Assembly: GCA_003024175.1 (NCBI GenBank)
Contig: MDYQ01000599.1
Location: 1 to 64,000 of the forward strand
Reading direction: 5' to 3'
DNA from: Planoprotostelium fungivorum
Lineage: Eukaryota; Evosea; Variosea; Cavosteliida; Cavosteliaceae
Length of the DNA: 64,000 nt
In this document: positions 23,950 to 64,000 of the stretch, in pieces
How the letters are laid out: every line of letters starts with the position of its first letter
Numbering within the stretch: position 1 is the stretch's first letter
Notes under the pieces: generated by a model
What the model was told of the DNA's origin: nothing
What the model saw: only the letters and a program-made list of their open reading frames with translations
Databases searched by the model: none
Translations under genes and position numbers: made by a program

Positions 23950-26900
23950 ATGCCTGACATGACAATCGTTGTAGACGACCTCCGTCTTGAATATTTCGAT
24001 AGAGGGTCGTATCACAAGCTGATGAATGTGGATCTCACCCAGAACTCTCAGTAACTTCCCCGGAAGCGGTGCTTTGTGGAATACTGTGGAAGAAATCTAT
24101 GTCTTCAAAGTTTGTCGCATGTCACCCTTGACCATTCTCACATCTTCTAGTTACTGAAACAGAAGTCAACGGGGAGGGGATTTTTAGATGCAGTGATCTC
24201 TACCGTACAATCCAGACCGCTCACATATCGTATCGTGATGCACAACAAAGTCGACGGACAGTCTTGGATTATCGCAGTCTCTGATCAAGAGGACAACATC
24301 AGGAAACACTGGTCTTTCCTCTTCGAGTCTCTGTTACCCCACGTCCGTGAACCAGTAGAGGGAATCATGTCTGACCGTACGCAGGTGCAATCTCACCGTG
24401 AATCCTCAAAGTCACAAGGTTTGTGACCTTTGATGTCATCATACTCAAGACGTTCAGATGTTCTCGCCCTCGAAGACAGTGCAGAATTCAGCGACTTACC
24501 TCCCGAATCGATGGCCAGCGAGAAGACATCCTTCCCGAAAGAAGATTGGAAAATGGTCGATTGGAATGATCTTCTGTCAAAACAGGGAGTGGACGATGAG
24601 GGCATTGTTTCTTACGTCCTCTCGAAAGTAGAGAGTCTCTCGCAGGTGAAGTCATGGTGGAGGATGTCGAATCACATTGTGCAGTTGGAAGAAGGTGAAG
24701 AATCGAAGAACATGGAAATCGTCATCGAAGAATTTCACAAGACGTTCAAAGACCTTCCCAACGAGAAATTACTCACATGTGAGTCGTTCGTCCGATGATG
24801 TCGATGATGATCATCTCACGTGTGATAGACTTTTTGTGTAGTCGTCTGTCCTCAAGGACTTGGAAGGCCATTCCAAAGCCTGGAACCATCTACGTAACGG
24901 AAAATTTCGTCTGCTTCTACCAATCGAGATCAGATCACGATCAGTCGGTCGCCGGCTCACCCCACATCGCCGACGGAGGTACGTACACACGGTACCCCAG
25001 CTACCGTACGTACGGTACGTTTCGCTCACGATCGTGCAGGAAAAGTCATGCTGCCCGACGGCCGTACCTTGGTCATACCCTTCAAAAATATCTCCGCCAT
25101 ATCAAAAGAGTCCGTTGCCATGGGTTTATTGGACAATTCCATTCAGATCACTTCACAGAAAGTTCCCGTGAGTTATTTTGATGAAGGATAGGAGGAATCG
25201 TGTGACATCCAGCAGTACACGTTTGTCTTTTTGAGAAGGGAGTCAGCTTACACTCTATTGGAGAGATTGTGGAGGAAGGCGATGCAGGACCTTCTCACTT
25301 TCGCCGAGAACGAGTGAGTCGAACGTTCTTCTCTACATTCCTCATTCGAATCATCCTATGAAAATAGAAGAAATAGCGTGAAGGTAGAAGAAGAAAACAG
25401 AAGAGATGAAATAATCACGAGGATGACGATATGTCATTTTGAAGGATGAAAACTGAGAGAGAAGCAGAGCGGGAGTGACATCACCCAACTTGAAGGCAGA
25501 GGCGGTGCAGATGAGCAAGAAAGTGCACGACGACAGACTGAAGAACGAACAATTCCAAAAGTTATTCAAATTGGGATCTGAAGTGCTCGAAGACGGTGAG
25601 AAGCGAATGGATCTCTGAAGCATAATCACCGTACATCAATGTATCTACTGAGTCATCCATGCACCTATCATCTCATCAATGGTTATACATCCTCTACCTA
25701 TATTACATCCGATCGATGGACACTATCGTATATCTGTACCATAGGATGATTGATCGATGCAGATTACATCTGCTCCTTCTGGTGGAAGAACAGTTACCTC
25801 GTAGGTCGAATGTACATCAGCAGGAACTTCTTATCCTACGATACGAACATCTCCGTGGCCAACAAGGTTACATTCCTCAACAACCATCCACTCAACATCT
25901 CTAGATATTGCAAGTCATCGTCTACATCCCAGACATTCAATCGGTCGACAAGTCTTCCGTCTCTTTCGGTTTATTTCAGAACGGAATCACCCTACGCATG
26001 AAGAATCAGAAGAAGGTGACGAACCATCCTCTCATCTTCTCGTCGACACGAACGAGAGACGATCCACTCACTCTCTCCAGTTGTTCTTCGCCTTCTATTC
26101 ACCCAAAGAAGTGTTAGAGAAGATCAACACGTTGATGAAGACTCGAACCATCAGTGACAGTGGTCACTCTGATTATCACGACATGTGAGTTGATTTGTGA
26201 CGAATGACACATTGATCACCCACCACCATCCTCTTTCATACAAACACATACCGTCATCGTGTTCTCCTATTGATGGAGGACAGTGTGAGAGTGAAGGAGA
26301 GGTGGAGCAACACACCGGGCTACACCATCTCTACTGCAGAGGAGATGAAACAGTCTCAAGCTTGGCAGAAGTTCCTGGGAACCCACGGCCCTTTGGGAAT
26401 CTCCATCATCAAAACTCCGAGACTCCGAACAATTATCCGAGATCCCGGTATCCCTGACAACATGAGGGGGCTACTGTGGCAGTATTTATCCGGTACCCCA
26501 TCTACAACACGTCAGTTGACTGAACGAAATCAGGATCAAGGGCAAAGATGATCGCTAACCAAGGATATTACGCCAGGATTACGGAGGAGAATCGAGGAAA
26601 GACATCCGACGCCATAGAAGAGATTGAGAAGGACGTATTGAGGTGACGCTCTCATTCCTAGGAGAGAAAATGACATTCATCCTCTGGGAGAGACTCTTTC
26701 TGACTCGTTGTAGATCGCTCCCCTCTCACCCCTTCTACGTACAAGAAGGAGAAGGAACGAACATGCTGAGGAACGTCCTCAAGGCTTTCAGCTGGAGGAA
26801 TCCTCACATTGGATACTGTCAAGCCATGGTGATCGTACATCCATCGTGGACATCAGATTGACACCTCTCAGAACATTCTCACGGCCGTGTTTCTATTGTA

Positions 26901-28397
26901 CATGGACGAAGAAGAGGCTTTCTGGTTGTTAAGCACGGTAAGTCTAATGTTTCACTTCTCGTGACGAGATTGGTAGATCTGTGAAGACATCATACCAGAG
27001 TATTACAATCGGAGTCTGTTGGGCTCCACAGTGGATCAAGCGATATTCGAGACCCTCTTAGAACAGAGTCTCCCCCACATCTTCAAACACTTTCAGACGG
27101 TAACAATGCATCCTCCCTACCCGAACTGACTCGTTGTAGATCGGTATCCCTCTCTCTCTCATCAGCTTGCCTTGGTTCATGTGTCTCTACTTGTCTTACG
27201 TTCCATGGAAAGCTGCCCTGCGTATATTAGACTGTTTCCTCTACGATGGCCCAGACATCTTACTCAGAGGTACGTGAACGTCTACACGAAACGTTTAGAC
27301 ACAGCTGACGCGTGCAGCCGGTCTGGCCATCTTGAAGTTGAACGAAGACATGATCATGAGCGAGAGAGACAACGAGAGGATTGTCCCTGCACTCAAGGCT
27401 GGAAATTATGACTGCGATGCACTCATTCGGGTGACATTCCATCGATTTCCATTCTTCTCACTTTATTCTTCCAGTTGATCTTTATCGATTTCGGTTACCT
27501 CTCTGAAGAGAAGATGAGAGAGCTGCGTAATCGTCACAAGTTTATGACCATCAAAGGTGAAGTCGTAGAATCATGCACACGAACGACTCACATCTGTCAG
27601 GGATGGAGGAGCATAAGAAGAGGAAGCAACTGCAGAAGATGGGAAGAGACGTAGACAGTGAGCCATCTGATGTGAAGCAGCAACTGATCGATTGCAAGTG
27701 ACCATGCGTGAATTGGAGACTCTCCAGATGGAGTTTGAAACGGTCACGATCAAAGAGGGCGTACCTGATCCATCGCACCCTCCCACGAGCGTCACCATCA
27801 TGGGCTGCCAGCAACTCCTGCAGAGGTTCTGCTCAGCTTATCAGTCAAACTGGTGGGACGCAGTGTTACCGAGGATATTCATCACCACCGATGGAAACCA
27901 AGACGATAGGATCGATTTCCCCGAGTTTCTATCCATCATCGAGGTGAAGATCTGATCGTGATGGCTGGTGATCGTGATGATGATGATGGAACAGGTGGCG
28001 CTGAAGGGATCTCTAGAGACGAAGGCGAAATGTGAGTTGACGTTTTGTGGAGGAGACTGACGCGGATAGACATCTTCAAGTTGATCGATGCGGATGACGA
28101 CAACCGAGTGAACAGCCAAGAGCTGGCGACCGTCCTCAAACTCACCCACAGGTGACCGATCACCGTGACATCTCATCGACTCACACGAGAAGGATGATGA
28201 CAAGAGGAGAATCTGAAGGCGAGAAAGACTTTGTCATGATGATCTTCTCCAAGTTGGGATTAGAACCGGAGGGAGAGATCAGTTTGGAGGACTTTTTGAA
28301 ACAGTCGTTCGACGAGTCTCAGTTTCTCAGACAGTTCTGGATGTTGACGGAGCAGCAGTGCACGCAGAAGTACAGAGTGCCCACCCTCACCTATTGA
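23950..28397 (+). CDS. GRAM-GRAM-TBC-EF-hand RabGAP (TBC1D8/9-like)
   Basis: A long multi-exon gene with the TBC1D9 family order. The N-terminal region (24180-24420) is degenerate; the first GRAM domain includes [15 protein letters not shown] and ENFVCFYQS (24830-24920) and [18 protein letters not shown]. The second includes [20 protein letters not shown] (25760-25820). The TBC domain has [11 protein letters not shown] (26462-26493), [14 protein letters not shown] carrying the IxxDxxR arginine finger, GYCQAM (YxQ glutamine finger), and [19 protein letters not shown]. So both catalytic fingers are present and Rab-GAP activity is expected. Two EF-hands follow: [15 protein letters not shown] and [13 protein letters not shown] (27880-28120). 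About twenty introns. The first exon junctions near 24050-24170 are uncertain. Confidence 0.85.
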
Positions 28398-28491
28398 ATC
28401 TAAATCCTATAAATAATCGAGTGTGATGAATTTGTCTTGTAAAGGAACACGCTCGATTTCTTTTCGTGCATGCAGACGTTTCTCGGAGACG

Positions 28492-30548: not shown

Positions 30549-32872
30549 ATGGCGCCGACTCATCTGACCCTCTTTATCGACGATAAAAATGTTGTGATCT
30601 CTAATAATTCTGAGTACCTGGAGGAAGACGTCATCATCCAGCGAGAGGCCCCATACAAAGGTGACCATCTCGCGAAATGTCAGTCGTCTAACAAGAAATC
30701 AGTCACAAAAGGAAGATCACCCACTACGACTTTACCCATTCATAAGAAGGGCGAGGTGGTCCTTCATCTTTTCGACCATATCCTCTGATCCAAACACAGA
30801 TCATGGCTGTTTTGGGTCTGTTGAATCTCCTCCGTGGACCCTACCTATTGGTCGTCACAGCCGCCAGCCATGCCGGAGAAATCGAGTATCCTGCTGGCAA
30901 TCGCCACGAGGTGAAGCGATCTGTTCAACTCACGACTGAAGTTTCCGTCAGGTCCATCTCATCACCGACGTGGACGTCATCAGCTTGAACGATTCCTCCG
31001 TGAGACCATCATCTCTTCCATCAGCTCACACCCGTGACAGAGCATGTCCAGAGAGCAGCTGGCCGACGAAGCACAATACCGTCAGATGCTGGTCCACCTC
31101 CTCACCTCCCAATCCTTCTACTTCTCTTACACCTACGACCTCACAAACAGCCTCCAACGCAACGAGTCACCCATAGGAAAGACGAAACCTGACAAAAGGT
31201 TCGTCTGGAACGATGCCGCACTGCAGCCTTTCTCTTCCGTACACAAAGAGTGGATCACTCCAATCATCCAGGGCTACTTCTCTTCCACCCCCAATTGCTC
31301 CGTCACCCCCACCGGAGGCCAGGTGAGGGCAGAGTGGCCGGTTGTAGATTTACCACCTCAGCTGAGGAAGGGAAAGAATTCGGATGCCACCTTCACCTTC
31401 ACCGTTCTGTCCAGGAGATCGAAAGACCGTGTGGGAACCAGATACCACTCCCGTGGAGCTGACGAGCGTGGCAACGTTTCCAATTACGTAGAGACGGAGC
31501 AGATGCTCCACTTCTCTCACCAGGGTAAGCACACCACCACTTCCTTCGTACAAGTTCGGTGAGAGAATTGACGGAGATTTCGCGAGTACTGAGTCGAATG
31601 AAGAGGTAGTATCCCTCTCGTGTGGAATCAGAAGGTCGACTTGCAGTACAACCCACCCATCGTAGTGGATGCAAAAGACAGCCAGAGTGTGGCACTTCAC
31701 TTTGGAGAACAGATCGAGATCTACAAGAGACAGGTGGGTGTCAGATCGACCGATGCACAGCTGAGATCGATTAGGTCCTGGTGGATCTGGTGAAAGGATC
31801 TGGGGATGAAAAGGAACTGGGACATCTTTACGCAGAGAGTGTGAAGACTGCATTACAGCAGCTGCACAAGGGAGGTAAGACGCGACCGCCTCATCATCAT
31901 CGCGATGATTGTATTCAACACAGTGACAGACGAGAAAGATGCACCGTTGAGATACGAAGGCTTCGACGTGTACAAGTACTGCGGAAACAAGAACTACTCC
32001 AACTTACAGATCCTCCTCGATCGATTGGAGACCGACTTCTCATCCATCGGTTACTTCTCTTCTTCCGAAGGAAAGAAGGTGACTCACGATATTCGTACCC
32101 ACATTCACGCGAGATTTCAGGCCGTCACCCAGAATGGTGTATTTCGCACCAACTGTAAGGACTGCCTGGACCGCACGAACATGGTGCAGACTCTCTTGGG
32201 CAAGATCAGCCTCTTGATCCAGTTGAAAGACTTTGGCGTAATCGACTACGACAGACACGATCAGTCTCTACAGAAGGCGGCCGATTTGACGTCCTTCTTC
32301 TCCATCTTCCGCAACGTGAGTCCACGTCGCACCGATAGAAGGTAGACTCAAATATAAATCAGGTGTGGGGAGACAACGGTGACGCCATCTCCGTGCAGTA
32401 CGCAGGGACACCTGCCCTGAAGAGGGACATCACTCGATTGGGTAGGAGGACACTCATCGGTGGCCTCGACGACGGCTTCAACTCGGGTGAGCTCCTCCTC
32501 CTCTTCCTCCTCTGAAGCTTCTCAGTCTCTCGCTACGTCTACAATAACGTCGTAGACTCTTACAAGCAAGATTCCATGCTGCTACTCACGGGACGGTACC
32601 AACCCTCTCGCGATTCACCTTCCCCGTTTTCGGTCCGCAACGACTACGTCTTTCCATCTTCTGCACTGAGGGGACTCTTTGTCTTCTTCTTCAGCTTGGT
32701 CTTGTCCGTCTTCACTCTCTTCGGTCCTCAGAGTCTGAAGAGGAAGAGCTACCTCTTGATCGTCTCCTTCTGGTTGCTCTTCTTGTTGTTCGTCACGAGA
32801 ATACTGCGCATCAGCGGAGAGGCAGTGGTCAGCACCCCCAGATTCGTCGAGAAGAAGAAAAACGCAAAGTGA
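30549..32872 (+). CDS. Sac1-type phosphoinositide phosphatase
   Basis: An ER/Golgi membrane enzyme dephosphorylating PI4P and other monophosphorylated inositides. The start [16 protein letters not shown] is at 30549. The Sac domain includes [13 protein letters not shown] (30820-30860), [16 protein letters not shown] (31115-31160), [10 protein letters not shown], the segment [17 protein letters not shown] (32132-32180) with the CX5R(T/N) catalytic loop, and [16 protein letters not shown] (32435-32485). Two hydrophobic C-terminal segments, [17 protein letters not shown] and [14 protein letters not shown] (32670-32800), give the membrane hairpin, and the tail ends in basic EKKKNAK. Full length by family comparison. 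About seven introns of 40-55 nt. Confidence 0.93.
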
Positions 32873-33051: not shown

Positions 33052-35768
33052 TCACTTCTTCTCCCTCTCTTCATCTTCTCGGTTGAATTCTCTTCTTAGG
33101 TGGCTCAATATGGATTCTGCCTTGACACCGGATGGAGGTAAGGCAGGACCGATGGCTTGTTTGGGTGCTACTTCCTTGGACACGGGTGGAACGACCCTCT
33201 CGGGAGAGGGTGGGAGCTGCTGCTCCATCATTTGGAGCTGTTTCTCCACGGATATCTCCGATCGGGGTTCGATCGTCGGTTCCGTTTTGATCTCCTCCAT
33301 CTCGACGACGACAGGCTCGGGCTCGGGTTCGGGTTCAGGTTCGGGTTCGGGTTCGGGCTGTCTCTCATCAGAAGACATTCTCACGATATCACGACCGTAC
33401 AATATGATATCACGATTGTACGATATGATATCATGACATGATCACCTCCTTCTCCTTCAAAACCAGTGGATCTTCACTCTCAAAGATGGATTTGAACAGA
33501 TCGATGGAATACTTTTGTGAATTGGGATCCACTCCTTCTTCTTCTTCCTCTTCTGCCTCCTCCGCCACGATCTCCTCGTACGTCTTCTGAGGTGCACCAT
33601 CTTCCTTTCTCTTCTGGTATCCACTCTCCATGAACGCAAACGGTGCAGACTCCAACGCCTCTTGATATTCCGTACCTTCACTGTATCATTCCACGATTCA
33701 TTTAGACATCCTCCACCTCCCAACAGCTCTGTCACCTCCGGCTTCGCCTGGATGGATGGATTTTTTCCCTTGTGTGGATCTTTCACGTTGAATCTCTTGC
33801 ACAAGAGAGAATTCGGTGTGAAATCCGTCGTCGTACGGGTGAGTTTTCCGTGGAATCCCATGGTGGCCGCGGCCGTCTGCGGGCTCTCGTCTATCTCCTC
33901 CTTCTTCTGCTTCTGATCTCTCATCTTGCTCTCCAATTCTCTGAGCCCTTCGTTGGGGTCCTCTACCTTCGGTTCGGTGAATCTGATGGAGTCAGTGGTC
34001 ACGACGTCACGATTCGCCATACCTAGAGTTCATCTGGAAGCGGAGACCTTGGAAGGGAGTCTGCATGGCCATGAACTTCTCTCGATTGATCCTGTCTTCT
34101 TCCACCACTCTCTTCTTGTACTGTCACAGTGGTCAGCGTCTTTAAAGATGTCACGTGAGATATCGTGGGTAGGGTGAGAGGATGGCGTACCTCTTCGGGG
34201 GTGATGGCGGGTTGTAGATCGGTGGGTGGACCGAATCGGTTGGCCAGTTGAGATATCTTATTCAATTCGTCCTGGCTGATGATAGATCCCCTGCTCGATG
34301 GTAGTGGTGTCTCTCCCAATATCTGCAATAGATATCAGCCACTGCGATCCCAAATAAATGACGCGAAATATCATTTTATTGTCATTTGACGAGTACAATA
34401 CGTCTGACGATATTCACATGGAGATCTCACCTGACCACGTTTCTCAGCGTTCAATTGTGGTTGATGTGTGTTCAATCTCTGAACTGGATCGTACGGACAC
34501 ATGGGAATGTAGTCGTCGGGTATCTATAACGAGTCATTCTCTCGACTACAACTGTCGCTCTCACCTCGGGTGGAGGAAATAGAACCACTTGCTCTGGCTT
34601 TCTCAACGGTAAGCAGAAACCTTCTAATGGCTTACTACCGTCAGAGCATCTCGCTCCATTATCCGGTACGGCCCTCCTGACCACCTTCTTCACTTCCTTC
34701 GCCTTCTCTGTCATCGCCTTCCTCTGCTCTGTACCCCTTCAGGATTCTCCCGCCAAAATTCTTCTCACCTGATTCAGACATGAGCGTCTGATCGTAGTTG
34801 CTCATCTGATCGAATCCGTAGGCGGAATCATCGTCTTCTCTATCATCAAAGATTCCAATGCCCAAGTTGGAGCTGACGGGACCAGATCGACTGTCTAAGA
34901 CGGAAGACATGGAGATAACGGTGGAGCCGTTGGGTTTCGCTCTGCCTTGACTCCACTGCTCCAAGTTGTTCGTTGGAATGAAACCCAAGCCGTGGATGTT
35001 GTTCTTTGGGACTAGTTCTTGGGCCAATGCGGTATCTACAACGTTGTAGATGAGTTGGAAAGAGAGAAGCAGACGCACCTGCGGCGGGTACGTCATCATC
35101 GTCATCGTCTTCCGTCTCCTTTCTCAGCCCTTCGGGTAATTGTACTCCGTACACCTTTTCACGTCAGCGTCCATCAGCATGATGATTGCATCACCTTCTT
35201 CTCTTTGGGAGGACCACTCTTCTTTGCCCTCTTTGCCCCGAGAGCTTGACCCTCTCTCCATCCCATGTGTCGTAGTAATTTTACACCGATGACACTGTAA
35301 TCGCGAATGGGTGCGAAGTCTCCGAAATTAATCGCAGCATCGTTCGTCTCTTCCTTCTTTTCACTCTTCTTGTCTTTACTCGCAAACGAATTGAACTCCG
35401 ATTTCGCCTGTCGACGTCAGAAATGATGATGTGATGATTGTAATCCACGCCACCTTCAGGCCATCTTCCAATTCTTGTTTACGATCTTCTTCGTCCATAA
35501 AATCTTCCGGTCTCATCTGAGCCTTCTCCGCTCTAGACGATCGAGATGATTTGTAATGTGTGGGAGCCCATCCTTCTTTCGAACCTACCGAGTTGAAATA
35601 ACCTGCTGACCAACCTCCAGTGAAGGCTCCGTGAAAACGTCTCTTTCCATTCTCATCGGTGACGGTCTGCTGCCATGCAGGTGTGTTCTTCGTCTTCTCG
35701 AGGTCGTTGAGAGATAGAGGCGTTCCAACCAAGTGCTCCGCCTCACGTGGCTTCTTTCTTGACACCAT
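33052..35768 (-). CDS. GPATCH1-like G-patch protein
   Basis: A spliceosome-associated G-patch protein (human GPATCH1, plant TOUGH). The N-terminus at 35768 runs [52 protein letters not shown] (35490-35730), the family's DUF1604 region. The G-patch follows: [17 protein letters not shown] (35230-35290), then VYGVQLPEG. Later parts are [25 protein letters not shown] (34280-34330), [11 protein letters not shown] and [12 protein letters not shown] (33770-33870). The C-terminus has an acidic tract and a (Glu-Pro)7 run encoded by tandem hexamers (33310-33360). About nine introns; one near 35070 ends in a perfect palindrome. The start codon is 15 bp from that of the divergent neighbour. Confidence 0.9.
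33306..33360. repeat. Hexamer repeat coding (Glu-Pro)n
   Basis: About eight units of GGTTCG/GGCTCG in tandem (plus strand) encode alternating Glu-Pro near the C-terminus of the G-patch protein, a stiff, acidic linker. Confidence 0.85.
35035..35050. repeat. Perfect palindrome at a 3' splice site
   Basis: TCTACAACGTTGTAGA is a perfect 16 bp inverted repeat. In the GPATCH1-like gene (minus strand) the acceptor AG falls within its right arm, so the intron would end with CTACAACGTTGTAG. Each arm equals the core of the decamer seen in many other introns of the window. Confidence 0.85.
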
Positions 35769-35783
35769 GTTGTTGGTGATGTG

Positions 35784-37803: not shown

Positions 37804-40800
37804 ATGGCTGTGCGTAACACCATGCTCTCCATCAACTACCTGTCCGCCATCTTCAAGAAGAGAAGAAATTCGACGTCATCAAATACTTCCAACAGTAAGT
37901 CCTTTGTTTCATTTTAAAGTGATGAATCATCAGACACGGACGATGAGCATGACCCCTATCGTCCCGTTCTAGAGAAGGTAGAGAATGATCTCTTGAGGAT
38001 ATTAGAAGAGTGTTCGTCTTCCCACATCGAGCTGGGACACTTTCAAGAGATGATCGTTCTCATCCGAAACATGTTGTATCTCATCCACATCATGATGGAC
38101 GTCGATGTTGATGAGGTGAGGAGATTCGACTCTTTGAAATCTCACGAGGAATCTATAGAACAGTTCGGCGTCCATTCCCTCCACACGATCTGCATCCGGT
38201 GAGTCCAAATAAAATAGAATAAATCCGAATCCATCTGATCTTCCCAGGGCTTCCCACGCGACAGACACCCCAATGGTTACACCTCAGACCAGCCTCTCAG
38301 ACTAGGATCGCCAACCAATTTCCGGGCGTAACCAGACGTAAGAGCCGCTCCCTCGTGGCCAGCGAGTCCCAAAATAGTTTCACCCCACAGCTCTCCAGTC
38401 CCAATTCAAATTCTCCGAATCTCCGAAACGATCACCCCAGGAAATCCTCGCAAGTCGAACAGATCAAGAGGTGAGTGAAAAATCGATGAAAACTCGACTT
38501 ACGCAACCAGTAAACTGTTGGAATCTATCACAGAGGGTAGAAAGGGCTCGCCCCCGACATCGCCTACGTCACCCAGGAAGAGCAGCCTCTTATTGAACAA
38601 CATCTTTGTCTACACCGATCAACAGAGAAAGATCGACCGGACCGGCTCGTCTACCAACATAGGTGCGGCTGGTTGTAGAACGAAATCTCACGGAAATTTC
38701 AGACATGACGGGGGAGGGGCAGAGTAGCAAGGCGAAAGACGTTCCTTCTGCTGCTTACATCCGTCACAGAAATGTCGGACAAGCTGTCCGATCTACACCG
38801 ACGTCACCTCCACCTCCACCACCACCCATCCGAGTCATCGAGCCCACGTGATTTTCCCGCCAAATTTCTCACTCGTCTGACCCGTCCAGGCCACTACCGA
38901 GGTCGCCGATGAACGCGACCGTACGTAAGTCACTCAGCAGCAGTAGCAACAGTGGAAGAATGTCACCACAGAATGTAGAACAGTCTCTATCCCGTAACGC
39001 TTCCATGTCTAAGCAGTCCTCTACCGAGGTAAAATGTCTCGTTGTGGATTGGAGATGTCTGAAGAACAACAGTACCCCGGCAGATTGGAAGCCATCAAGA
39101 CGAGAAATCGAGCGAGATCGAGATCTTTCTGCGATATTTCCGAGGCCATACACATGGTACCCACCGTACCTTTCACGGAATTTTCCGCACGACGTGGGGG
39201 CACAATGCCCCCCTTACGATCACCCGTTCCGGTCAACGTGACGGAAGATCGGAAGAAGAGGTCCGTCACCATGGGAGACGAAGAAGATCTAAATATAGCT
39301 CACATCACCGAACACCGCTGGAGGCTGGCTCACTACCGCCACAGCCTGCAGAGGGTAAACCCTAAACCACTCCCCTCGTATGACATCTCACAGATCCTCC
39401 TGGACAAAGACTACGATGTCATCAGCACACTTTGTACCATCATGTATTCAAAAACTCCGACGCCAGAGGTAGCAGAGCCTCTCATTGAATTCTATTCCAA
39501 GAACGGAAGAACGGTGGATTTCATCAACCGTCTCATCACCGTAGAAGTGGCCCAGACGTGTACGTATCTTACGCACGTGCGTACCGTACTCACCCCTCCC
39601 AGCGGGCCTCGCGGTGTTGTTCCGTGGTGAATCCATGGCAACACACATGCTGAGCTACTACCTCAAGCGAATCGGTAAACCCTACTTGACTGCACTGATA
39701 GAGCCCACTCTGCGTGAAATCATGTCGGGGGAGGCCAACACAGAAGGAAAGACGGGAGAGACCAAGGACAACGTCCCCATACGAATGAGATTCGAAAGGA
39801 TTCTCTCTTCCATAGCAGACTCCGTAGAATTGTGTCCCAGGTGGGAAATTTCGACGAGTTTTCCGTGATATTTCGAGGAACGATTGACGGTGATAGGGCG
39901 TTCGTGTTGATCTTACGGCACGCACAGAACGAAGTCGTCTCACGATTCGGAAATCATTATTACGTCATCCAGTGCATCGTGTTTCTCAGGGTGAATGGCT
40001 CGTTGTAGATCGTCACCATCTGACCCTCTCAGTTCATCTGTTCTGCCATCGTCAATCCAGAGAGCTATTTCGGTCTCGCACCACCTTCCATCGAGGCATT
40101 TCAAGAGCTCGTCAAGCTGTCAAAGATGTTACAGACGGCTGTAAATCGACTGGCGACGGTAAGAGGCTAAAAATAGAAATGGCTGATTGTAGAACAGCAA
40201 ACGGATGCAGTGGATAACGATTCGAAGGTCATCAAGAGATTCATCGAGCGCATCATGGTGAACTCCACATTCCATTGATTCATCATCTCATCCATTTCGA
40301 TCATCAGAAAACTGACGGAGATTTCAGAACGTATCTCTACCCCCAGTGGGCCCAGGGACGAACGTATTTGACTTGTACAAGAGGGAACCTGAAGAGCTCA
40401 ACGTTCCCGCCAAACGCTACGAAGACCACATGGACACCATCTTTGACATCATGAAATCTCATCAAGATTCCCTCCTTGCCGCTTTACCTACCACCAACGA
40501 TGAAGTGAAATCCACCCACGAGATCTCACTGAAATTTCACAGAAAATCCGTCAACTGTTCGAGCTCAGAGGTCTACTGACCTCGGGTAACAGCAGCAGCC
40601 ACCGTTCTCTATCTCCACTCAACAGCCCAGCCAACAACAGACTCTCCGTGTGGCTGAGAAAAGACAACCGAAAAGAACAGGCCGCCCTGTCTGATCTAAA
40701 GAGGGCATTGGAAGAAGAGAGAGAAGAGAAGGTCATCTACCAGAGACTCTTAGTCGAAGCTTACAATCAATTGTACAAGAAAGGAAACGACAAGGTTCCC

Positions 40801-42226: not shown

Positions 42227-43635
42227 TCAACGATGATGGTGATGATCCATCTTCATCCGGATCGTGTCCCTCAGACTGTTGACCTCCGCCGTTCCCGTCT
42301 TCTCCATCAGAAAAGGATGTTCTAACAACTGTGCCGCCGAAGGTCTCTCGTTAGGGTTCTTGTTCAGACAGAAGCCAACAAAGTCGTGGAAGCTCTGGTT
42401 GTAATACTTGGTGTTCTTCGCTTCGGCCTGAGATTGAGAGAGAGTGGGGGCGGGGCCGTGGACGACAGAGCTGATGAGCTTCTCTTGTTTCTTCGCGTCA
42501 AAGTGGGGCAGTCTCGCCGTCGCGAGCTCGATACAGGTGATGCCTACGGACCAGATGTCCACCTGTGTGAAGAAATCAGTGATGTGATGTGGTAGTGTGG
42601 TGGTATGATGGTGATGAAAGATGTGAGGGTGTTGATGTGATGGATGACCTTTTCGTTGTAGGGAGCTGGATGATCGATGCAATTGATGTGTTCTGGGGCC
42701 ATATAGAGAGGTGACCCGCAGGGATCAGTTAGAAGATGGGAGGTGTAGTCATCTGCCATGCCCAAATCGACTGGAAGGTTTCAGTGGTTTGTCTAAGACA
42801 TTCGCCTCACTCAGTTTGACCTGGCCTCCGATGGTGATCATGATCTGAAAGGAATGAGAGAAGGTGAGAGGACATCTCACGGACATTGTCTGGTTTGATG
42901 TCTCTGTGGACGATGTTTATGGAATGTAGAAAGGTTAATCCTTTGACGACCTACGTGAATGAGACAGCAGATGATAGGGATGTCGTACCTCTCGGATGAT
43001 GTATCTGATCTGTTGCTCGATCAAGCAACCGTTCAATTGATCTAGACAGACACCCTCGCAGTATTCTAAAGCGATCAGACCCGTTCTGTGTCTGCTCGAC
43101 GAGGCGTAATACAATCTAGCCACGTTTTCATGATCTCCAGCTTTGGATATCTGAAGAGGGATCAATCTCGAGTGAGTATCATAGTGTATGACAACCTTCA
43201 AATGCAGCGTGACTTCGGAGTTGAAACCAGACCTCTTGACCTTCTGTTCTTTCAAGGCGAATCTGACGCAGAGTTTAGTGACGCTTCCATCATACGGGTG
43301 CGGCACCTGCTTCCATTCGATTCGACCAGATCGACTCTTCCATAATTTCTGCTGTCGTCAGCGAGACAGAATCGCAGGTCTCTCCTTCACCCTTTCCCCA
43401 AGTTGCGGATCTGATGATACGATTTTGGATCGAACCACACACTATCGCCAGAAGTGGAAGAGCAGTGAATCGTCTCCACTTGTTCGCTTTCTGAAGGAGA
43501 TGCAGGTGGCGTGGCGATCTTCAAATCGCCAGACATCCTTCGCGATAACCGGCTCACCAATCGAGAGAGCGGTGAGTGGTGTTGATGCTGGTGTTGGTGC
43601 TTGGTGCTATCTACGGGCGACTCTGTGCTTTGCAT
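42227..43635 (-). CDS. STE20-like Ser/Thr kinase (SPAK/OSR1-like)
   Basis: A single kinase domain after an N-terminal Ser/His-rich tail (start 43635). Subdomains in order: IRNLGKG (glycine loop, 43390), CVRFALKEQ with the ATP lysine (43250), HENVARLYYAS, GLIALEYCEG (43075), NIVHRDIKPDN (42900), IDLGMAD in place of DFG (42765), DPCGSPLYMAPEHI (42700), DIWSVGITCIELATARLPHF (42490-42560), and NPNERPSAAQLLEHPFL (42310-42360). The C-lobe fits the STE20 group, nearest SPAK/OSR1. The DLG variant keeps the metal-binding Asp. There is no PF2-like C-terminal domain: the protein stops some 25 residues after the domain. At least six introns. Confidence 0.85.
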
Positions 43636-47961: not shown

Positions 47962-48233
47962 CGAAGTGATCCGGCGGTTCAGAAAGGGTTCTCTGGCTGA
48001 GGCAGACCTTTGAATCTCCGGTGAGAGTGATGGATAAGATGGATGGATAAAGAGGAGAAGAATGAGTGTCCTTTCTCTACTTAGAATACGAGTAATTTAT
48101 TAGCCTCTGAATGCTCGTTGTACTCGGGCAGATGTCCTCCGTCTACATAACAATACTCATTTCACGACAAGACACGAATCACACAGCGGGACCGGTTGTC
48201 CTGCGTCTACATAACTATAAGAAGTGAATGCGT
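47962..48233. repeat. Dispersed repeat, copy B, interrupted
   Basis: The same sequence as 3683-3890, in direct orientation, but with 64 extra bases at 48152-48215. The extra segment is flanked by 18 bp direct repeats, GTCCTCCGTCTACATAAC at 48134-48151 and GTCCTGCGTCTACATAAC at 48198-48215. Copy A has this sequence once, so copy B carries the insertion or duplication. Confidence 0.85.
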
Positions 48234-48255
48234 GTCTTGTCGCGAAGTAAGTATT
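48152..48255. mobile_element. MITE-like hairpin with about 31 bp inverted repeats
   Basis: The left end reads AATACTCATTTCACGACAAG (from 48152) and the reverse complement of the right end (48255 backwards) reads AATACTTACTTCGCGACAAG, and both continue ACACG. Over about 31 bp roughly 26 match. The 104 bp unit has no coding capacity, as in a MITE. No clean target-site duplication is visible at the outer ends, and the right arm overlaps sequence shared with copy A, so a palindrome formed by rearrangement is the alternative. Confidence 0.45.
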
Positions 48256-48625
48256 CTTCATCCCCATATTGCTCAATAGTTCTTCTCTTTCGCTATTCGT
48301 TCACTACCGTGACCCAATAGATCTTTCAGCATCACATACAACAAACGAACACGATGCATCATCATACGAAAGAAGAAAGAGACGGCTCTCCGCTTGTCTA
48401 TTGAAGAAATCTCATAAACATAATCTGTAGGTCGAGACTTTGAGCTGTGAGCTCTCCAGACCTTCCCGTGACAACAAATACATTATTCCACAGACATCAT
48501 CATCCTGATGGAGTCCTCTCATCGATAGTTCCGCCGATTCAGCTCTTCTTGAATCGATGTGATTTCTCTCCCGTAGTCATGTCTGACCTGCACTCTGTCA
48601 ACTCTGTGGGAGTTATAGAGGACGT

Positions 48626-49525
48626 CTATCTACACACCTGGGCGATGTCTCTGTGCATGATCTCTTCTAATATCTCCAGAGCTTCCAGGCGTAATCCTCT
48701 CAATCTCTCTGCTATCTACAACGAGTCAGTTTCGGATTTTTCCGCGAGATTTCACCTCCGTCGCACACGCCGTATCGGCTCCCGCCTGCATCTCAGCCAA
48801 GTCACTGTCGGACAGTGCACTCCACTGTCTACAATCAGCCACTCCAGACCCTCCCCTCCACTCACGTCTTTCGTCCCCCCGTTGGTTGACTTTGCGAATT
48901 GGATGGCCTTGATCCACCGATCGACTTCATGTTCGGTGTCTGTCGTCATCATCCACACTCGGGCGGCAGTGACGAGTCGAAACATGAACCTCCTCTTTGC
49001 CTTATCTCCAAAGACTTTCTCTATGGACACGATGGCTGAGATGGGGATCCTTCCTTGTAAGTTCTGATGCGGCGGTGCCTTCGGATTGTCCTTCTATAGT
49101 CAGGCATTCAATGTGGGTCGAGGAGTGGATCACCTCGTTCGGTTTGAAATAAGATAATTCTTCTGAATTCAAACGACACCAACGTTTCTTCCACCTTGAT
49201 ATGACATGAGATCACCTGGATGTCAAAGAGAAAATGAACTCACGTTTTGATGCGGCCACCTTGTTTAGTCACATATCCTTCACACAAGATGGGTAATGGT
49301 GCTCGCGTGACCGTTCTCGCAGATTCACTCTTAATTCATCGAATCAACATCTCAATCAGAAACATCCGTCACACTCACTCTCTGTTTGCTCAGCGTCGGC
49401 GATCGGGACACGCTCAGTATGGAGTGAGAGGTCGATCTCGTCGTTGGACTCCTTGGCGGCGACGGTGTAGGTGTCGGTCCTTTTGAGCCCTTTCGGTCGC
49501 TGCTCGACCGAAGGAAGGAGGCCAT
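48626..49525 (-). CDS. PH-domain protein
   Basis: From the start MASFLRSSSDRKG (49525) a Ser/Pro-rich leader (PTPTPSPPRRSPTTRSTS) leads into a PH domain. GYVTKQGGRIKT (about 49245-49280) is joined to WKKRWCRLNSEELSYFKP (49140-49190), then GRIPISAIVSIEKVFG, RFMFRLVTAARVWMM and the invariant-Trp helix HEVDRWIKAIQFA (48895-48930). Basic residues early in the fold suggest phosphoinositide binding, but the exact ligand cannot be read. A C-terminal helix RLRGLRLEALEILEEIMHRD ends at 48626. Four short introns; the last ends in CTGACTCGTTGTAG. It is divergent from the PCYT2 gene with 111 bp between starts. Confidence 0.85.
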
Positions 49526-49636: not shown

Positions 49637-51151
<1,515 letters not shown>

Positions 51152-54178: not shown

Positions 54179-56770
54179 ATGAGTACCGTCGAAGCTCAGT
54201 TCAAAGAGCTGAACAGTAGCATACAGGCGTCAGATTATGACAAGACTGTACAAATTGCTGATAAGAGTAATTGATTTGGAATACGATCTCAAAACTCATG
54301 TGATTCAGTTTTGAGTGCCAATCAGAACGATGTCGAAGCATTCCAGTGCAAAGTCGTCGCATTGATCCAGAATGGAGACTACCCAGCTGCTCTGAAAGCA
54401 ATAGAAACGAAGCCAGAGGGCTTTCAATTTGAGAAAGCATATGTTCTCTATCGTCTCAAAGACTTCGAGGGCAGTCTGAAGGTTTTGACTCAGATCTCTG
54501 ATAAATCGGAGAGGGTTTTACATCTGGAAGGGCAAGTGGTGAGTCATCTTCACCTCTTCCATCCTATCCCTTCTACCCCTCCCGTTATACATGTTGATCG
54601 CTCGCAGCATCACCGATTGGAACAACACGATAGAGCTCTGGACATCTTCAAGACGTTAATCGAAAAACACAATGTGAGTCGAACCGTTTGCATGATTTCT
54701 CAGGGTTGATCCATCGAAAAGGTCAAGAGCTCCGAAATGAAGACCAACTTGGCTGCCGCCCACGCGGCCGGCGGCATCACTCGCAAAACACTTCTCGAGT
54801 TCATCTCTGCCAACAGAGTACGTTTCACCATCTCATCCTGATCCATCATTCACTTATCCGATGGAATGACTGACAAACCGTACAGGGAGAGGACTCTCAC
54901 GACTTTAGCTTCAACGTGGCCTGCGCATGCATCTCCGTCGGAAACTTTTCTGATGCCGAGAAGTTTCTCATCCGAGCTGAAGGTTCGCAACATGACATCA
55001 CTCATATCACTCACCTCTTCCTCAGAGACTTGCAAGGCAACACAGAGCGAGGAAGATCTCAACGATGAATTGGCGGGAATCCTGTGCCAGAGAGGCTATC
55101 TACAACAGCTGGGAGGACAGACCGATCTGGCCTCGCAGACCTACCAGACCGTTCTGAAGAACAAGTGCGTGTCATCCGTCGAGATTTCACTGATATCTCC
55201 AGGCCCTCTGACGAGGCCGTGGCCGCCGTCGCAGAGAACAATCTCGTCGCGGCGAAGAAGGAGCAATCTTCCCTCTTTGACTCACACAAGAAATTGAAGC
55301 ACGCGTTCAACCTCGATCACAAGCTCAACACGCAGCAGAAGAGGATCATCGGCTACAATAGGGCCCTCGTGTCTCTATTGATGAATAAGGTGAAGGACTT
55401 TAAAGGATGGAACTGAAGGAAGTAGGCAGAGGAATGCAGGGAACAGATCAAAGCGTGTGAGGCACAGTTTGCCGACGAGCCCAGATTTGCCCTACTCAAC
55501 TCTGCGCTCTTATTCAAGGAGAAGAAGGTGGGGTGATCATCTACAACGAGACATTTTTGACGGGAGCAGTTTGAAGAGAGTCAGAAGGTGCTGGAGGAAT
55601 TCTCCAAGAGACATCCAGACAGTGGTACAGACTTGGAATTGTACTTGGTCCAACTACAACTCAACAGTGGAAAGACGCAAGAGGCCGTGCAGGTACTGGA
55701 AGGTATCAACAAGAAGAACCCCAAGCAGGTGACGATCTACACCCTGCCAATGGCTCGTTGTAGATTGACGTAACGCAGGCTACCGTGGCCGCCCTCGCCT
55801 CGATTCACATGCAGATGAACGACTTGAACGCCGCCGCCGACGTATTGACTCGATACGCAGAGTCCCTCTTATCTCAGAAGGTATTCATCTACAACTCGCC
55901 ACTTCATCGTCTACAACGCACACATTTCCCCATTTTTCTCATTCTACCTTCAGAGCGTGGCAGACGACACGGATCAGCAGAGAGTTCTCAGAGAGATAGG
56001 AAACTTCCTCGTGCAACACCACAGATACAAAGAGGCTGCGAGAGTGTGGGAGGGTCTGTTCAAATCGACCAACGACATCCAAGCTCTCGGTCATCTCGTC
56101 ATTTCTCTCTCTCACTTTGACCAAAAGTCTGCAGAGCAGTGAGCTCTTTTCTTTCACAAATATTTTAATCACATGTTTTTCTTACAATTTCTTTTCACTT
56201 TTGTCAAAATTATTTTGGCTCACGATCGTTGTAGATATGGTAACCGTCTGGGTGCCATCAAGGTGGAGGACGAGGAGGTGATTTTATTTCATTTTATTTG
56301 ATCGAATTTGGGACTCAAATTGTGGCAGGTTGTAGATGCCGAGACGCTGGAGAATCTGGCAGCTCCCAGGCTCTCAGTCAAGCAGGCCGAAACTCCGGCC
56401 GAGTGAGTTTTCTCAGAATCTTCCATCTACAACGACTGATGACTTCAACAGGGGAAGCCAGCAGACGAAGGAGAAGAAAAAGAAGAAGAAGAAAAAGCTC
56501 TTACCAAAGAATCTCAACAAAGCCATCGACAAAGAGAGGTGGCTGCCTCTCCGCGAGAGAAGCTACTACAAGAGAAAGAAGGGACAGAAGGCAAGCATGT
56601 CCCACGGAGGTGAGAATAAAATAGATTAAAATAGGATACTGACGGGGGCAGCGTCGCAGGGTGCCGCAGAGAAGCCGGGAGCTCAGCCGGTGAAGGCAAC
56701 GACACAGCCAGTGAAGGTGGCACAACCTCCTCCACCTCAATTGAAGGGAAAAGGAAAGAGGAAGAAGTGA
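54179..56770 (+). CDS. Signal recognition particle subunit SRP72
   Basis: A TPR protein that with SRP68 binds the SRP RNA. TPR-type helices run throughout: FKELNSSIQASDYDKTVQIA, FEKAYVLYRLKDFEGSLKVL, DVACACISVGNF-like FNVACACISVGNFSDAEKFL, LAGILCQRGYLQQLGGQTDL (55065-55130), AEECREQIKACEAQFADEP (55425-55490) and VQHHRYKEAARVWEGL. The C-terminus has a Lys-rich block and DKERWLPLRERSYYKRKKG (56528-56585), the family's diagnostic RNA-binding motif, then a Pro/Lys-rich tail. About eleven introns. At least four carry the decamer TCTACAACGA or its complement, in both orientations, and mostly away from splice sites. Confidence 0.93.
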
Positions 56771-59450: not shown

Positions 59451-60799
59451 ATGCAAGGCGGATTCTGGTCAGCTATTGCTCTCACAACGATATCAGGTCT
59501 ATCCACCTCCATCGGTGTGAAATCACATGACATCGCGTGTGAGATTGAAGAACGACAACAGGTGGGGCCGTCGTATTGATGGGAGGCAATCCTAGCACTC
59601 GATCTCTGGGCCACATGCTCAGTTTCGCGAGTGGTGTGATGTTGGAGATCTCGTTCATAGACATGCTACCTGAGGCTGTTAGCTCTATCGGTTTCTTCGA
59701 AGCCAATCTCTACGTGAGTATCACGTCCTCCATCTTACCATTCGATGATTAGATATCAGTTCTTTGTGGGCATGCTCCTGTGTGGGTCCATGGTCTATCT
59801 CATACCAGAGGAAGATCTGAGTAAATTGGCAGGAGGAAAGACGAAGGATCAGGAGAAGGAGGTGAGATGATCGAAAGAGCCTTACGTCTCTGAAGATCAC
59901 TCAGGGAAGTCTGTTGAGAGCAGGAATGATCACCGCCCTTGGCATCAGGTGGATCATCTCCTATTTCTGATTACTATTGTCAATCATATCATTCTGTTCC
60001 ATTTTGAGATGCAAAACGATGAAACTCATTCATCTTACAGTCTACATAATTTTCCAGAGGGGATAGCGGGTGACACAGAGAAGTGTTAAACGTTCGTTAC
60101 ATTGAACTCGACATCCAGTCTACCTCAGTTGTCTCAGAGGCATTGGAATGGGCTTACCTTTAGCTATTGCCATCAGCATACACAACATACCGGTGAAATT
60201 CCACTCATAAGACATCAACGCTGACCCATTATCAGGAAGGCATGGCAGGTTTGTATTTGAAATTGTTTTAATCGAATTAAATTGAGATCGATGACTACAG
60301 TTGCCGTCCCAATCTATGCAGCAACAAAAGACAGGTGGCAGGCCTTCAAATGGTGTACCCTGAGGTGAATATTCGACGAAAATTCGAAGAAATTGACTTG
60401 AAATTTCAGCGGTCTCTGCGAGCCCGTGGGAGCACTCATCGGTGTGTGGCAAGTTGTAGATCGTCCCAATTGATTGTGACACAGCGGGTGTCTTTTTAAC
60501 TTCCATACTGACGGAGCACATGGTTCAATGTTCACTTGCCATGGGTGAGACACTTCATCTCGATGATGATGGAGACGATCTACTCACGATCACGATCAGT
60601 TGCCGGCGTCATGGTCTTCTTGTGTCTGAAAGAATTGCTGCCGACGACTCTAAAGTACATCGACGCTGGAGTGAGATGACAATTGGACGATGTGATGGAT
60701 GACGATGAACAGGAGGCGGTGATCAGTCACATGGTCGGAATGTTTATCATCTTCATCAGCGTACACTTGTTGAGTGATATCAGTGGAGGACAAATTTGA
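59451..60799 (+). CDS. ZIP-family metal transporter (ZupT/SLC39A11-like)
   Basis: An integral membrane transporter moving zinc or related metals into the cytosol. The start at 59451 gives MQGGFWSAIALTTISGLSTS. Then come GAVVLMGGNPSTRSLGHMLS, FASGVMLEISFIDMLPEAV (59600-59680) and, after introns, SLHNFPEGIA, the helix-4 metal site. LPLAIAISIHNIPEGMAVAV (60155-60310, split by an intron) holds the helix-5 HNxPEG metal site, followed by YAATKDRWQAF, TLSGLCEPVGALIGV, VMVFLCLKELLP and HMVGMFIIFISVHLL. Both HNxPEG motifs are intact. About nine introns; one (60420-60485) contains AGTTGTAGA. No long His-rich loop. Confidence 0.88.
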
Positions 60800-61950
60800 A
60801 TGAAAGAAGAGACATAAGTTGATGTGCTTCATTGCGACTTGTACGTCCTGTCCCTCTCGGTCATGTAGATCTCACAATAGTTGATACAATCTTCTGTGTG
60901 GTTGAACGTTACAATATCGAGACCCTATAAGAAGAAAGAGTTGGGTGTAAAGAGACAAGGTCTCATGTTTATCGATGGTTCTTGCGTACGTGACTTCGTC
61001 TACGTGCGTAGTAGAGGATTTCTCTGCTGATCGGGACGTTTGCATCGTGTTCAATCGTGATGTTCCGTCGTTCCGTGGATGTTGAAATGATGTGGATCTC
61101 TAAGTCGGAAGCTTATAGGTGTAGGTGCTCGTCGTGAGTGTGCGTGATGTGATGGACCGGTGAAGCTTGGGCTTGAAATGTTGTGGTGTGATGTCCGTAA
61201 TGTTGTCTATGGAATCGCGTATCGTCGCGTGGTGTTTGTTGTCTATGTACTGATGGACTCTATCTTGAAAGCTTGCTCGTGCGCGTGTATGTATATGCTC
61301 TCGTTATCTTTGCGTTGTTCGTGTCCCGGTCGGTGGCGTTATGATTCCAATGTCTCAGCAGAGTTGATAGCGTCGACGTTCAGGACATAATAGCCTATGT
61401 CCCAGGCTCTATTAGTACCTCCACGGTGGTCGACATACAGAGACTTCCATCGGCAGGAAGAGAAATGCGACTTTTTTTAGCCCTTTGTCCACCTTTCGGT
61501 GCTTGAAGGCCTTCGTGGCACTATGATAAATAAAACGCGATGGGCGTTATCAAGACACACTTTTATTTGAGAAGGGAGAGGTGATGATGAGAGGAGAAGC
61601 TGAGATGCAAGGGAAAGTGCTGTTGTGAATTTTCGTGTGGTTAGAATAAACAGTCTACCGACCATCAGCTCAGTACATCACGATGACAAGTGTGGTACTG
61701 CATATGAAGGATGGACTGTCGGCGTGCACAGAAGCCGTCAGAGCTGGTTCCCGTTCACTCTTGAGTCTCAGCCCTAGCCTGTGTCACATAACCTCTCGTT
61801 ACCGTCGCAGAACTCAGTATAATTATCTGCGATCTGCCCCGGTTGCAGGTTGTCAACCGCACAACGCATCATCTCCACATCTACTTCAGGGGGCAGTTTA
61901 CCCTCTAATTATCCAACGATTTCTGATTGTCACCGTGAACGTGAGGTGCA
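60800..61950. other. Long intergenic stretch, no gene recognised
   Basis: Short ORFs at 60872-61054 and 61477-61665 (minus) and 61160-61390 and 61683-61964 (plus) have no recognised domains. No tRNA, repeat or transposon signature was found. It is unusually long for this compact region. Confidence 0.4.
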
Positions 61951-64000
61951 ATGACGGACTCTGAGGGGAGACCTCTTAAGTCCATTTTGTCGAAACCAAC
62001 GACCCGTGAAAAGAAGAAGAGGTCGATGGTTCGATTTGCCACTGAAGCAGAGATCTACGAGGTAAACTTCTACCCATTTTGGATGACATCATATGCCCCA
62101 ATCCATAGAGATTATCGAGGACACAGACGTTATTATCCCTCGCATACGATAGACGTTACATCGATCTCCCACATGGCAATTAAAATTTTATTTCGCACTC
62201 CACAGATCCTCATCCATTTCAGCCGGAATACCTCACGGCCGAAGACATAAGTGAATATTATGATTCAGACGAGGAATACTATGAGGAAGATATGCCTGAA
62301 GATGACGAAGAGGAACTCGACGAGGAACCACCCCCATCCGTCCCTGTCTCTCAACCACCCCCGAAATCAGAGGAAGATGCATCCGCCCAACCATCGTGAG
62401 TGATATCCATTGTCAAATCGTAATCGCGTTGTTCCATCGAGGGGACACGATTCTCCCATCACGCGATCGAGCCCGAACTCTTTGTTTTCTCTTCTCTCGC
62501 GATTCATCGACTACCGAGATGATATGATACATACGCCCTCTATCATCTTCTCGGATCTAAACGATGGACAGAGGCAGAAGAGGGTTAAAAAAGAACGACA
62601 CCATCACCATGCTCGAGACGAAGAGATCACAAGACGAAGCTGCAGCCCGCCACACTTCCAACGGAGAGGCAGAGAAATCCGGCGCCGAAGCCAACGGTGA
62701 GCCGTCAGAATTTTCTTCGAATGGTTTGACCCCGCTCCAGCTTCCCCCACCGTCCCATCTGCAGTGACATCATCCGATGAGCTGGATGATCTCATCGTAT
62801 CACCTCCCACCGGTAGTCCACAGAAGTTGGCGTCACCCAAGCCGAGGGCCCTCCCCGAGCTAGAAGGTGAGTCCCAAATCGATNAGCTGCAGCCCGCCAC
62901 ACTTCCAACGGAGAGGCAGAGAAATCCGGCGCCGAAGCCAACGGTGAGCCGTCAGAATTTTCTTCGAATGGTTTGACCCCGCACCAGCTTCTTCCACCGT
63001 CCCATCTGCAGTGACATCATCCGATGAGCTGGATGATCTCATCGTATCACCTCCCACTGGTAGTCCACAGAAGTTGGCGTCACCTAAGCCGAGGGCCCTC
63101 CCCGAGCTAGAAGGTGAGTCCCAAATCGATTTTCCCGCCAAAACTGGACAGAGAGGACGGGTGACTTGAGAAGAGCCGTTGCGAGACTCAGAGGAGTGAC
63201 TGGCAGTTCAGAGGCCCAAAAGATCTCATCCATGTTCGGTTCTGAAGATCGAGAGTGGTCCGAGCCATCCGCCAACGAGGTATTTCCCGCCTTTTTTTCC
63301 CGCCAAAATTCTACTTTTTCCCCGCCATTTTTTCCCACCGAAAACGTCTCACCGTCTCCAGGCCGTTCCCCCCCTCATCGAACTCATTCGAAAGCAAACG
63401 TCTAATCCAGACATCGTCTTGTCTGGTCTCTCCATCATCCGCCTCATGAAAGACACGAACGGTATCAAGCACCTCTTTCGAGATCATGAGGGCATGCAGC
63501 TGTTGGGAAACTGCTCCCGTTCAAAGAACGAATTGATTCGCAGGATGTCTCTGCGATTCGCAGGCGAGCTCTTCACGAAGAATTCTGCCATCCACAACGG
63601 TGAGAGACTTCGATGAAATTTGGTGGAAATTTCGAATTGACACTCGTACAGTGAGAAACGTAGAAGCCGCCGCAAAGAGCGAGCTACTTCAGGGCATCAT
63701 CCAGTGTCTAACGGAAGAATGTGAAGAGAATCAGAGTTTGGCTGTTGGATTGATCCGGATCATTGCTTCGTTCGAGGGTAAATCTTCCGTCGTACAATTT
63801 AAGCGGGAAATCACATTGTACGGGGGAATTCCCGCCATTTTGGAACTGGTGAGAAGAAATGGAGAATATTTCGTGACGCGTTGTAGATGGGTAAGGAGAG
63901 ACCCGATCTCGTCAAGAGTGCCGCACAGTGCATCCAGAGGTTCGGAGAGACGAACGATCAGGTGTGGCTCGTTGTAGTCTGACGTCACCCCTGACCCCCG
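61951..64000 (+). CDS. Armadillo-repeat protein (partial)
   Basis: Start MTDSEGRPLKSILSKP at 61951 with RSMVRFATEAEIYE, a short motif reminiscent of KSILK...VRFA phosphatase-binding segments. An acidic exon follows (EEYYEEDMPEDDEEELDEE, 62265-62325), then Ser/Pro-rich exons duplicated at 62638-63130. ARM-like helices begin with AVPPLIELIRKQTSNPDIVL (63361-63420) and continue SGLSIIRLMKDTNGIKHLF, AAAKSELLQGIIQCLTEECE, SLAVGLIRIIASFE and GIPAILELMGKERPDLVKSA (to 63960). The gene runs off the right edge. ARM arrays bind other proteins; function is unknown. Introns of about 41 nt were phased across both duplicate copies. Confidence 0.7.
62638..63130. repeat. 246 bp direct duplication flanking an N
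   Basis: 62638-62883 and 62885-63130 are the same sequence with about five substitutions (around 2%). A single N at 62884 sits exactly between them. Each copy contains the end of one exon, a 41 nt intron and one exon of the ARM-repeat gene. The exact abutment on an ambiguous base points to an assembly join of two alleles or read ends. Confidence 0.9.

Follow-up and report, generated by a model that had tools for sequence, protein, structure and literature searches.

Why does one short word recur, on both strands, in introns of unrelated genes? The question is raised by a 64,000-nucleotide stretch of Planoprotostelium fungivorum DNA (contig MDYQ01000599.1, positions 1 to 64,000; the window), in which the word TCGTTGTAG has 16 exact copies distributed over both strands, compared to a mean of 0.26 and a maximum of 2 in 100 dinucleotide shuffles. 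Its features point, with somewhat better than even confidence, to the site of a sequence-specific, probably dimeric, double-stranded-DNA-binding protein that is housed in introns. An earlier, sequence-only reading of the window had listed 13 places for the word, almost always inside introns. Eleven of these are exact copies. The other two have a different first base: the place at 35035, which lies within a perfect palindrome, reads ACGTTGTAGA, and the place at 63878 reads GCGTTGTAGA. The list lacked five further exact copies at 1162, 3836, 23966, 41522 and 42653. According to the gene model described below, 10 of the 16 exact copies fall in predicted introns (the one at 42653 in an intron of 258 nt), three in predicted exons (1162, 41522 and 63969) and three in predicted intergenic DNA (3836, 23966 and 28627). 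The intron enrichment is strong, although "almost always" somewhat overstates it for the exact 9-mer.

Core, flanks and placement of the word

Introns were predicted by a self-trained gene model in a 264 kb sample composed of the window and 20 stretches of 10 kb picked by coordinate, giving 130 genes and 591 GT-AG introns with a median length of 44 nt. Counts refer to this sample except where the genome is named. The spliced SRP72 model aligns continuously across its motif introns, over residues 22-412, to SRP72 proteins of known structure (best E 9.5e-49). A Pfam search with a single frame from this region returned nothing useful.

The strict part of the word is the 8-letter core GTTGTAGA, and the leading TC of the 9-mer belongs to a degenerate flank. 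Aligned copies gave the consensus TGGC[T/G]C-GTTGTAGA-TGGAC with flanks that are alike for sense and antisense copies. The alignment covers 128 of 131 sites, three within 60 nt of an end being dropped, and flank information is gone beyond about 19 bp, leaving no longer shared sequence. Predicted introns hold 59 sense cores (3.6 expected) and 33 antisense cores (2.2 expected). Single-mismatch versions of the core occur in introns at chance, with 31 sense versions compared to 32.6 expected and 30 antisense versions compared to 29.3. In the 36.86 Mb genome, the 14-mer CTGACTCGTTGTAG has 409 exact copies (reversed control, 1) and the 13-mer TCGTTGTAGATGG has 1136 (reversed control, 2). The three versions of TCGTTGTAGATGG with the core A changed, the one core position that the genome-wide mutation count covers, total 29 (reversed control, 0), compared to 1031 (reversed control, 2) for the three in which one G of the flank is replaced. 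A core that is strict and orientation-independent is the behavior expected of a dimeric double-stranded-DNA site.

Core density is 2.53/kb in introns (92 cores), 0.36/kb in exons (48 cores) and 0.31/kb in intergenic DNA (29 cores). Relative to the rest of the sample, predicted introns have a 7-8 times higher core density, and the enrichment is neither absent nor restricted to sense copies at the acceptor. A slightly relaxed core is present in 91 of the 591 introns, about one in seven, and these introns are clustered by gene, occupying 48 genes compared to 60 expected of 117 (0 of 2000 permutations). No 5' intron bias was detected (mean relative rank 0.53 versus 0.50), and regional clustering was not evident, neighboring genes correlating weakly (Spearman 0.21, p = 0.13, 52 pairs). 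Phase 0 accounts for 59 of the 91 motif introns versus 271 of 500 others.

The median flank score is 6.3 in introns, 3.4 in intergenic DNA and 1.3 in exons. GT-AG stretches that score as intron-like hold 9 of 15 good-flank intergenic cores, 5 of 14 poor-flank cores, 76 of 400 random intergenic places and 122 of 144 predicted introns. Three of the 15 good-flank exonic cores were considered plausible missed introns, by judgement and with no control. Predicted exons contain 35 copies of CGTTGTAG, 6 sense and 29 antisense, and the antisense copies are read in frame as Tyr-Asn (14), Thr-Thr (13) or Leu-Gln (2). In viral contigs, a search with the pattern gave 78 single matches, which were taken as background. 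The papers listed in a literature search included none on the word in introns; one of them, PMC2268928, contains both letter strings, but only as the flank of an unrelated motif. Protostelium introns are treated in PMC10639083.

Inverted half-sites and the proposed reading

Half of the site also occurs in inverted pairs. TCTACA-N4-TGTAGA was found 14 times compared to 0.13 expected per gap, and 11 of the 14 pairs lie in predicted introns. Other gaps up to 60 give at most 2 pairs each, and the opposite arrangement of the half-sites gives none at gaps of 0-60. Genome-wide, there are 1624 gap-4 pairs with flanking R and Y (reversed control, 0) versus 83 pairs at gaps 5-16 pooled (control, 6). In the first 50 of the 83 as listed, gap 7 accounts for 35 pairs, gaps 6 and 8 for one pair each and gap 5 for none. 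Palindromic 8-mers in general number 133 in introns (94.8 expected, ratio 1.40), 378 in intergenic DNA (338.8 expected, 1.12) and 456 in exons (453.9 expected, 1.00).

A gap of 4 sets the half-sites 10 bp apart, about one turn of the helix, and inverted half-sites at a fixed spacing are also the arrangement expected of a dimeric double-stranded-DNA site. Seven of the first 50 listed palindromes lack a full 8-mer core. A dimeric DNA-binding protein fits because the half-sites are 10 bp apart, the site is orientation independent and the core is relaxed when both halves are present.

In the proposed mechanism, GTTGTAGA would be the core of a recognition site of about 19 bp that also exists as the gap-4 palindrome, and a putative binding protein would read the site in either orientation. 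Intron cores that lack a palindromic left half may use the weaker TGGC-type flank as the partner half. The sites would be housed in the short introns of a subset of genes, where coding is undisturbed, and selection would keep them for a DNA-level job in transcribed genes, such as transcription regulation, chromatin or polymerase progress; this gene-body role is what we infer for the site. Some copies would additionally have been recruited as splice acceptors by means of their TAG and a TGGC to TGAC change in the flank.

Alternative readings

It is unlikely that the word is an RNA signal, to which a splicing factor or small nuclear RNA binds in the pre-mRNA as part of acceptor or branch recognition. 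The TAG of the word is the acceptor in 21 predicted introns, with TGAC directly before it in 9 of the 21, and TGTAGATTGAC, in which the core is followed by a branch-like TTGAC, is found in 11 introns; both observations suit such a signal. On the DNA-site reading, it is the TAG within the site that gives rise to the acceptor cases. Splice-signal and target-site tests were performed on the 499 of 591 introns of 70 nt or less, 75 of which carry the word. A branch-like (C/T)TGA(C/A/T) is present in about half of the short introns, its A usually being the 10th-13th base from the intron end. The left-flank change of TGGC to TGAC puts a branch-like A at the 11th base, which accounts for the CTGAC-TCGTTGTAG acceptors that the sequence-only reading had singled out. 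Non-acceptor copies are internal, sense or antisense, and mostly mid-intron. Branch distances of motif introns are ordinary, and their median donor scores are 3.76-4.14 compared to 3.30, the exception being 2.49 for three introns with both orientations; donor strength does not differ significantly from other introns (p = 0.06 for sense and 0.17 for antisense, each in the direction of stronger donors). Acceptor scores are similar except for a lower value where the word is the acceptor (0.59 versus 1.20, with no significance test). A one-stranded RNA signal is disfavored because strictness is equal in both orientations, the antisense copies (33 versus 2.2 expected) departing from a sense-only pattern, and the palindrome keeps one main spacing. 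The window holds all three kinds of copy described earlier, namely sense acceptors, internal copies and inverted copies, and a plain acceptor consensus, already doubted in that description, is ruled out by the inverted and internal copies, which are equally strict.

A small chance is left to introner remnants, in which introns would have been seeded by a mobile DNA element bearing short terminal inverted repeats, and the word would be the remainder of the ends of this element. In the excerpt of Gozashti et al. (2022, PNAS, PMC9860276), introner families are defined by the sequence similarity of introns, some have terminal inverted repeats, and a target-site signature is not present in every family. 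As far as that excerpt describes them, introners resemble the present case in placing a repeated sequence in introns of unrelated genes, and they differ from it in that only a strict 8-bp core and degenerate flanks are shared here, with no detectable target-site duplication. The two orientations, the intron enrichment and the clustering by gene (48 versus 60 expected) would suit remnants, as would palindromes that resemble two abutted ends and the presence of several intron word families within the same genes. Two introns of 40-41 nt, L027:1576 (-) and L017:5647 (-), share GTGAG...CTGAAGGGTGCAG ends and have the middle 18 nt, with the site, inverted. Remnants should include mutated copies, and the single-mismatch cores at chance therefore count against them; decay of a mobile element is disfavored because the 8-bp core is intact without an excess of one-step neighbors while the flanks vary freely and widely. 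In-register identity between the 6 nt of the exon end and the intron end is close to that of shuffled pairs in all classes (the largest is antisense, 2.76 versus 2.53 ± 0.17), and the median intron length is 44 nt with and without the word. One whole 40-nt intron with its flanks has no match other than itself in 36.9 Mb, but the test is weak: very common words were skipped and one candidate was scored. A weaker point is that the donor-plus-site pattern GTGAGTNCATCTACAACGAGCCA has just 8 matches in the genome. Terminal inverted repeats at the boundaries of introns were tried separately as TCGTTGTAGAT-N10-40-ATCTACAACGA and rejected with 0 matches genome-wide.

An RNA hairpin is improbable. TCTACA-loop-TGTAGA would fold within introns and either be read by a double-stranded-RNA-binding protein or shorten the intron, and the 14 gap-4 pairs, 11 of them in predicted introns, do have a perfect 6-bp stem, which the search pattern imposes. 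However, a partner half is missing from most sites, the palindromic left half being present at 13 of 92 intron cores, and gaps 5, 6 and 8 are nearly absent among the 50 matches listed. The outer letters of the halves in the first 50 listed palindromes (TT 22, CT 26 and CC 2, versus 24.5, 21 and 4.5 expected) show no pairing preference, which tends to count against an RNA stem. The word could instead mark the genome and be located in introns incidentally, for instance as an uptake sequence, a hot-spot word for recombination or a promoter word for small RNAs like that of the nematode 21U RNAs. This would suit a strict 8-mer with more than 1000 copies of one 13-mer form in either orientation, but the low intergenic density would be unexpected, as would palindromic pairs in a one-way promoter word, and this reading is very improbable.

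Several points weigh against a DNA-binding site housed in introns. A DNA-binding site should turn up in promoters as well, but no density like that of introns is seen there, intergenic DNA with upstream regions pooled in having 0.31/kb compared to 2.53/kb in introns. Even outside introns, the core is about fourfold more frequent than the Markov expectation for the whole sample (overall 169 versus 22.4), and only part of this excess looks like missed introns. The introns are predicted without transcript support, and homology across introns was checked in one gene only, SRP72. Acceptor copies are necessarily sense and add to the sense excess (59 versus 33). The palindromic left half accompanies just those 13 of the 92 intron cores, the outer-letter test covers 50 of the 1624 palindromes, these 50 coming from contigs C1 and C2, and gaps 0-3 were covered in the 264 kb sample only. 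Special hairpin loops could account for the two main spacings, 4 and 7, although the near absence of 5, 6 and 8 would then have no explanation.

Of the two explanations first offered for the word, remnants of introner-like mobile introns find no backing in the mismatch cores or in the 6-nt target-site test. A splicing-factor site acting in RNA is not well supported, given equally strict antisense copies, one main inverted-pair spacing and ordinary donors, lengths and branch distances. Taken broadly, the "conserved site" survives as a double-stranded-DNA site rather than an RNA one.

Window sites, companion words and known systems

The predicted introns of the window that carry the site, and one exonic copy, are collected in Table 1. 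The SRP72 gene by itself carries motif introns of both orientations. For the predicted 177-nt intron, a 41-nt version, GTGAG...ACCTAG, looks likelier. An imperfect inverted repeat at 48149-48258, with 31-nt arms (84%) and a 48-nt spacer, does not contain the core of the site.

Table 1. Location of the site in the window; a slash marks the predicted splice junction.
Feature	Position	Strand	Site
Predicted intron 1, RabGAP-TBC gene (TBC domain match)	26493..26533	+	antisense core TCTACAAC at 26501-26508
Predicted intron 2, TBC gene	26643..26713	+	site is acceptor, CTGACTCGTTGTAG/A
Predicted intron 5, TBC gene	27100..27139	+	site is acceptor
Predicted 39-nt intron	31323..31361	+	internal sense core (GGTTGTAGAT)
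Predicted intron with most of the perfect palindrome ATCTACAACGTTGTAGAT (35034-35051)	35036..35078	-	TAG of one half is acceptor; its last bases exonic
Predicted intron	38663..38702	+	sense core and GAAATTTC
Predicted intron, RasGAP gene	39991..40032	+	internal sense site TGGCTCGTTGTAGAT
Predicted intron	48716..48755	-	site is acceptor, sense to that gene
Predicted 177-nt intron	50447..50623	+	internal sense site
SRP72 intron	55528..55569	+	antisense site ATCTACAACGAGAC
SRP72 intron	55729..55778	+	internal sense site TGGCTCGTTGTAGATTGAC; distant inverted half ATCTACA, gap 17
SRP72 intron	55881..55953	+	two antisense copies
SRP72 intron	56139..56234	+	site is predicted acceptor
SRP72 intron	56403..56451	+	antisense site CCATCTACAACGAC
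Predicted 38-nt intron	63849..63886	+	site is acceptor, GTGACGCGTTGTAG/ATGG
Copy in predicted minus-strand coding exon, outside the intron set	1162..1170	+	codons Tyr-Asn-Glu

Other words recur in the introns, one intron-word analysis being limited to the 548 of 591 introns of 120 nt or less. TTCCCGCC-type words are found in 18 introns, GAAATTTC in 28 and TATTTCATTTT in 11, and all three pair with the GTTGTAGA site within genes: 43 pairs versus 17.3 expected for the TTCCCGCC type, 58 versus 26.8 for GAAATTTC and 36 versus 10.7 for TATTTCATTTT. We take the TTCCCGCC-type and TTTCCCGCC-like words to resemble E2F sites. Introns of the CATCATC type do not co-occur by gene with the GTTGTAGA site (65 versus 96.1 expected), nor do those of the CACGTG/TGACGTCA/GTACGTAC type (29 versus 29.5). 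The 11 introns with TATTTCATTTT, usually within TTTATTTCATTTTATT, have it in sense in 9 cases (examples are 56278-56328 and L025:1937), and the word is absent from predicted exons and intergenic DNA. A predicted 82-nt intron at 63280-63361 (+) contains several near-tandem TTTCCCGCC-like words, and a similar tandem pair is present in an intron at L017:9207. After masking of the known words, 9-mer sharing is twofold higher between introns of the same gene than between those of different genes (0.0151 versus 0.0072; 539 of 591 introns, 100 nt or less).

Among the 90 genes with at least 3 introns, 29 are rich in the four words and 38 are free of them. The two groups are not distinguished by GC content, intron density or intron length. 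The word-rich genes encode longer proteins (median 412 versus 280.5 aa, p = 0.004) and have slightly higher gene-model scores (p = 0.04), differences that may come partly from fragmentary predictions. A scan of seven word-rich genes gave ordinary-looking identities (M48 peptidase, TBC, ABC transporter, RasGAP, ferritin-like and RhoGEF), one of the seven having no Pfam match. By eye, genes free of the site (for example L010:7776, L024:5537 and L009:1) include several secreted-looking or repeat-rich proteins, and the scanned site-rich ones are intracellular or signalling proteins.

A broader and rather doubtful proposal is that the introns of this protist contain a small vocabulary at the DNA level (the GTTGTAGA site, the E2F-like TTTCCCGCC, GAAATTTC and TTTATTTCATTTTATT) that DNA-binding proteins would read in gene bodies and that would define a class of genes, part of the cis-regulatory code then residing in 40-nt introns and not in promoters. 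Should the sites be bound as DNA, one intron in seven would contain strongly selected protein-binding sites that are not placed in promoters, as is usual for such sites. Such binding would mean a direct function at the DNA level for short introns and would supply a reason for the persistence of introns in a compact genome. A repeated intron word, even a two-way one, need not be the scar of a mobile intron, and the mismatch spectrum and half-site spacing help to tell the two apart from sequence alone.

Four known systems share features with the word. The motifs of plant intron-mediated enhancement are also short intron words, thought to act on transcription from within the gene, and they cluster in 5' introns, whereas the present word has no 5' bias, is different and is partly palindromic. 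The periodic A/T clusters of Caenorhabditis are an intron-borne DNA signal of A/T runs with a 10-bp period, and they are similar in their location in introns and in having some genes rich and others without them, but they are unlike the strict word found here. The 'Ruby' motif CTGTTTCA upstream of Caenorhabditis 21U RNAs is a strict 8-mer with thousands of copies, located in introns in either orientation and also in intergenic DNA; it is a one-way promoter word, unlike the palindromic pair with fixed spacing described here. The sites of dimeric transcription factors consist of two inverted half-sites at one fixed spacing, are orientation independent, allow a relaxed core if both halves occur, and are expected in promoters. 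The word has this same layout, with its density in introns.

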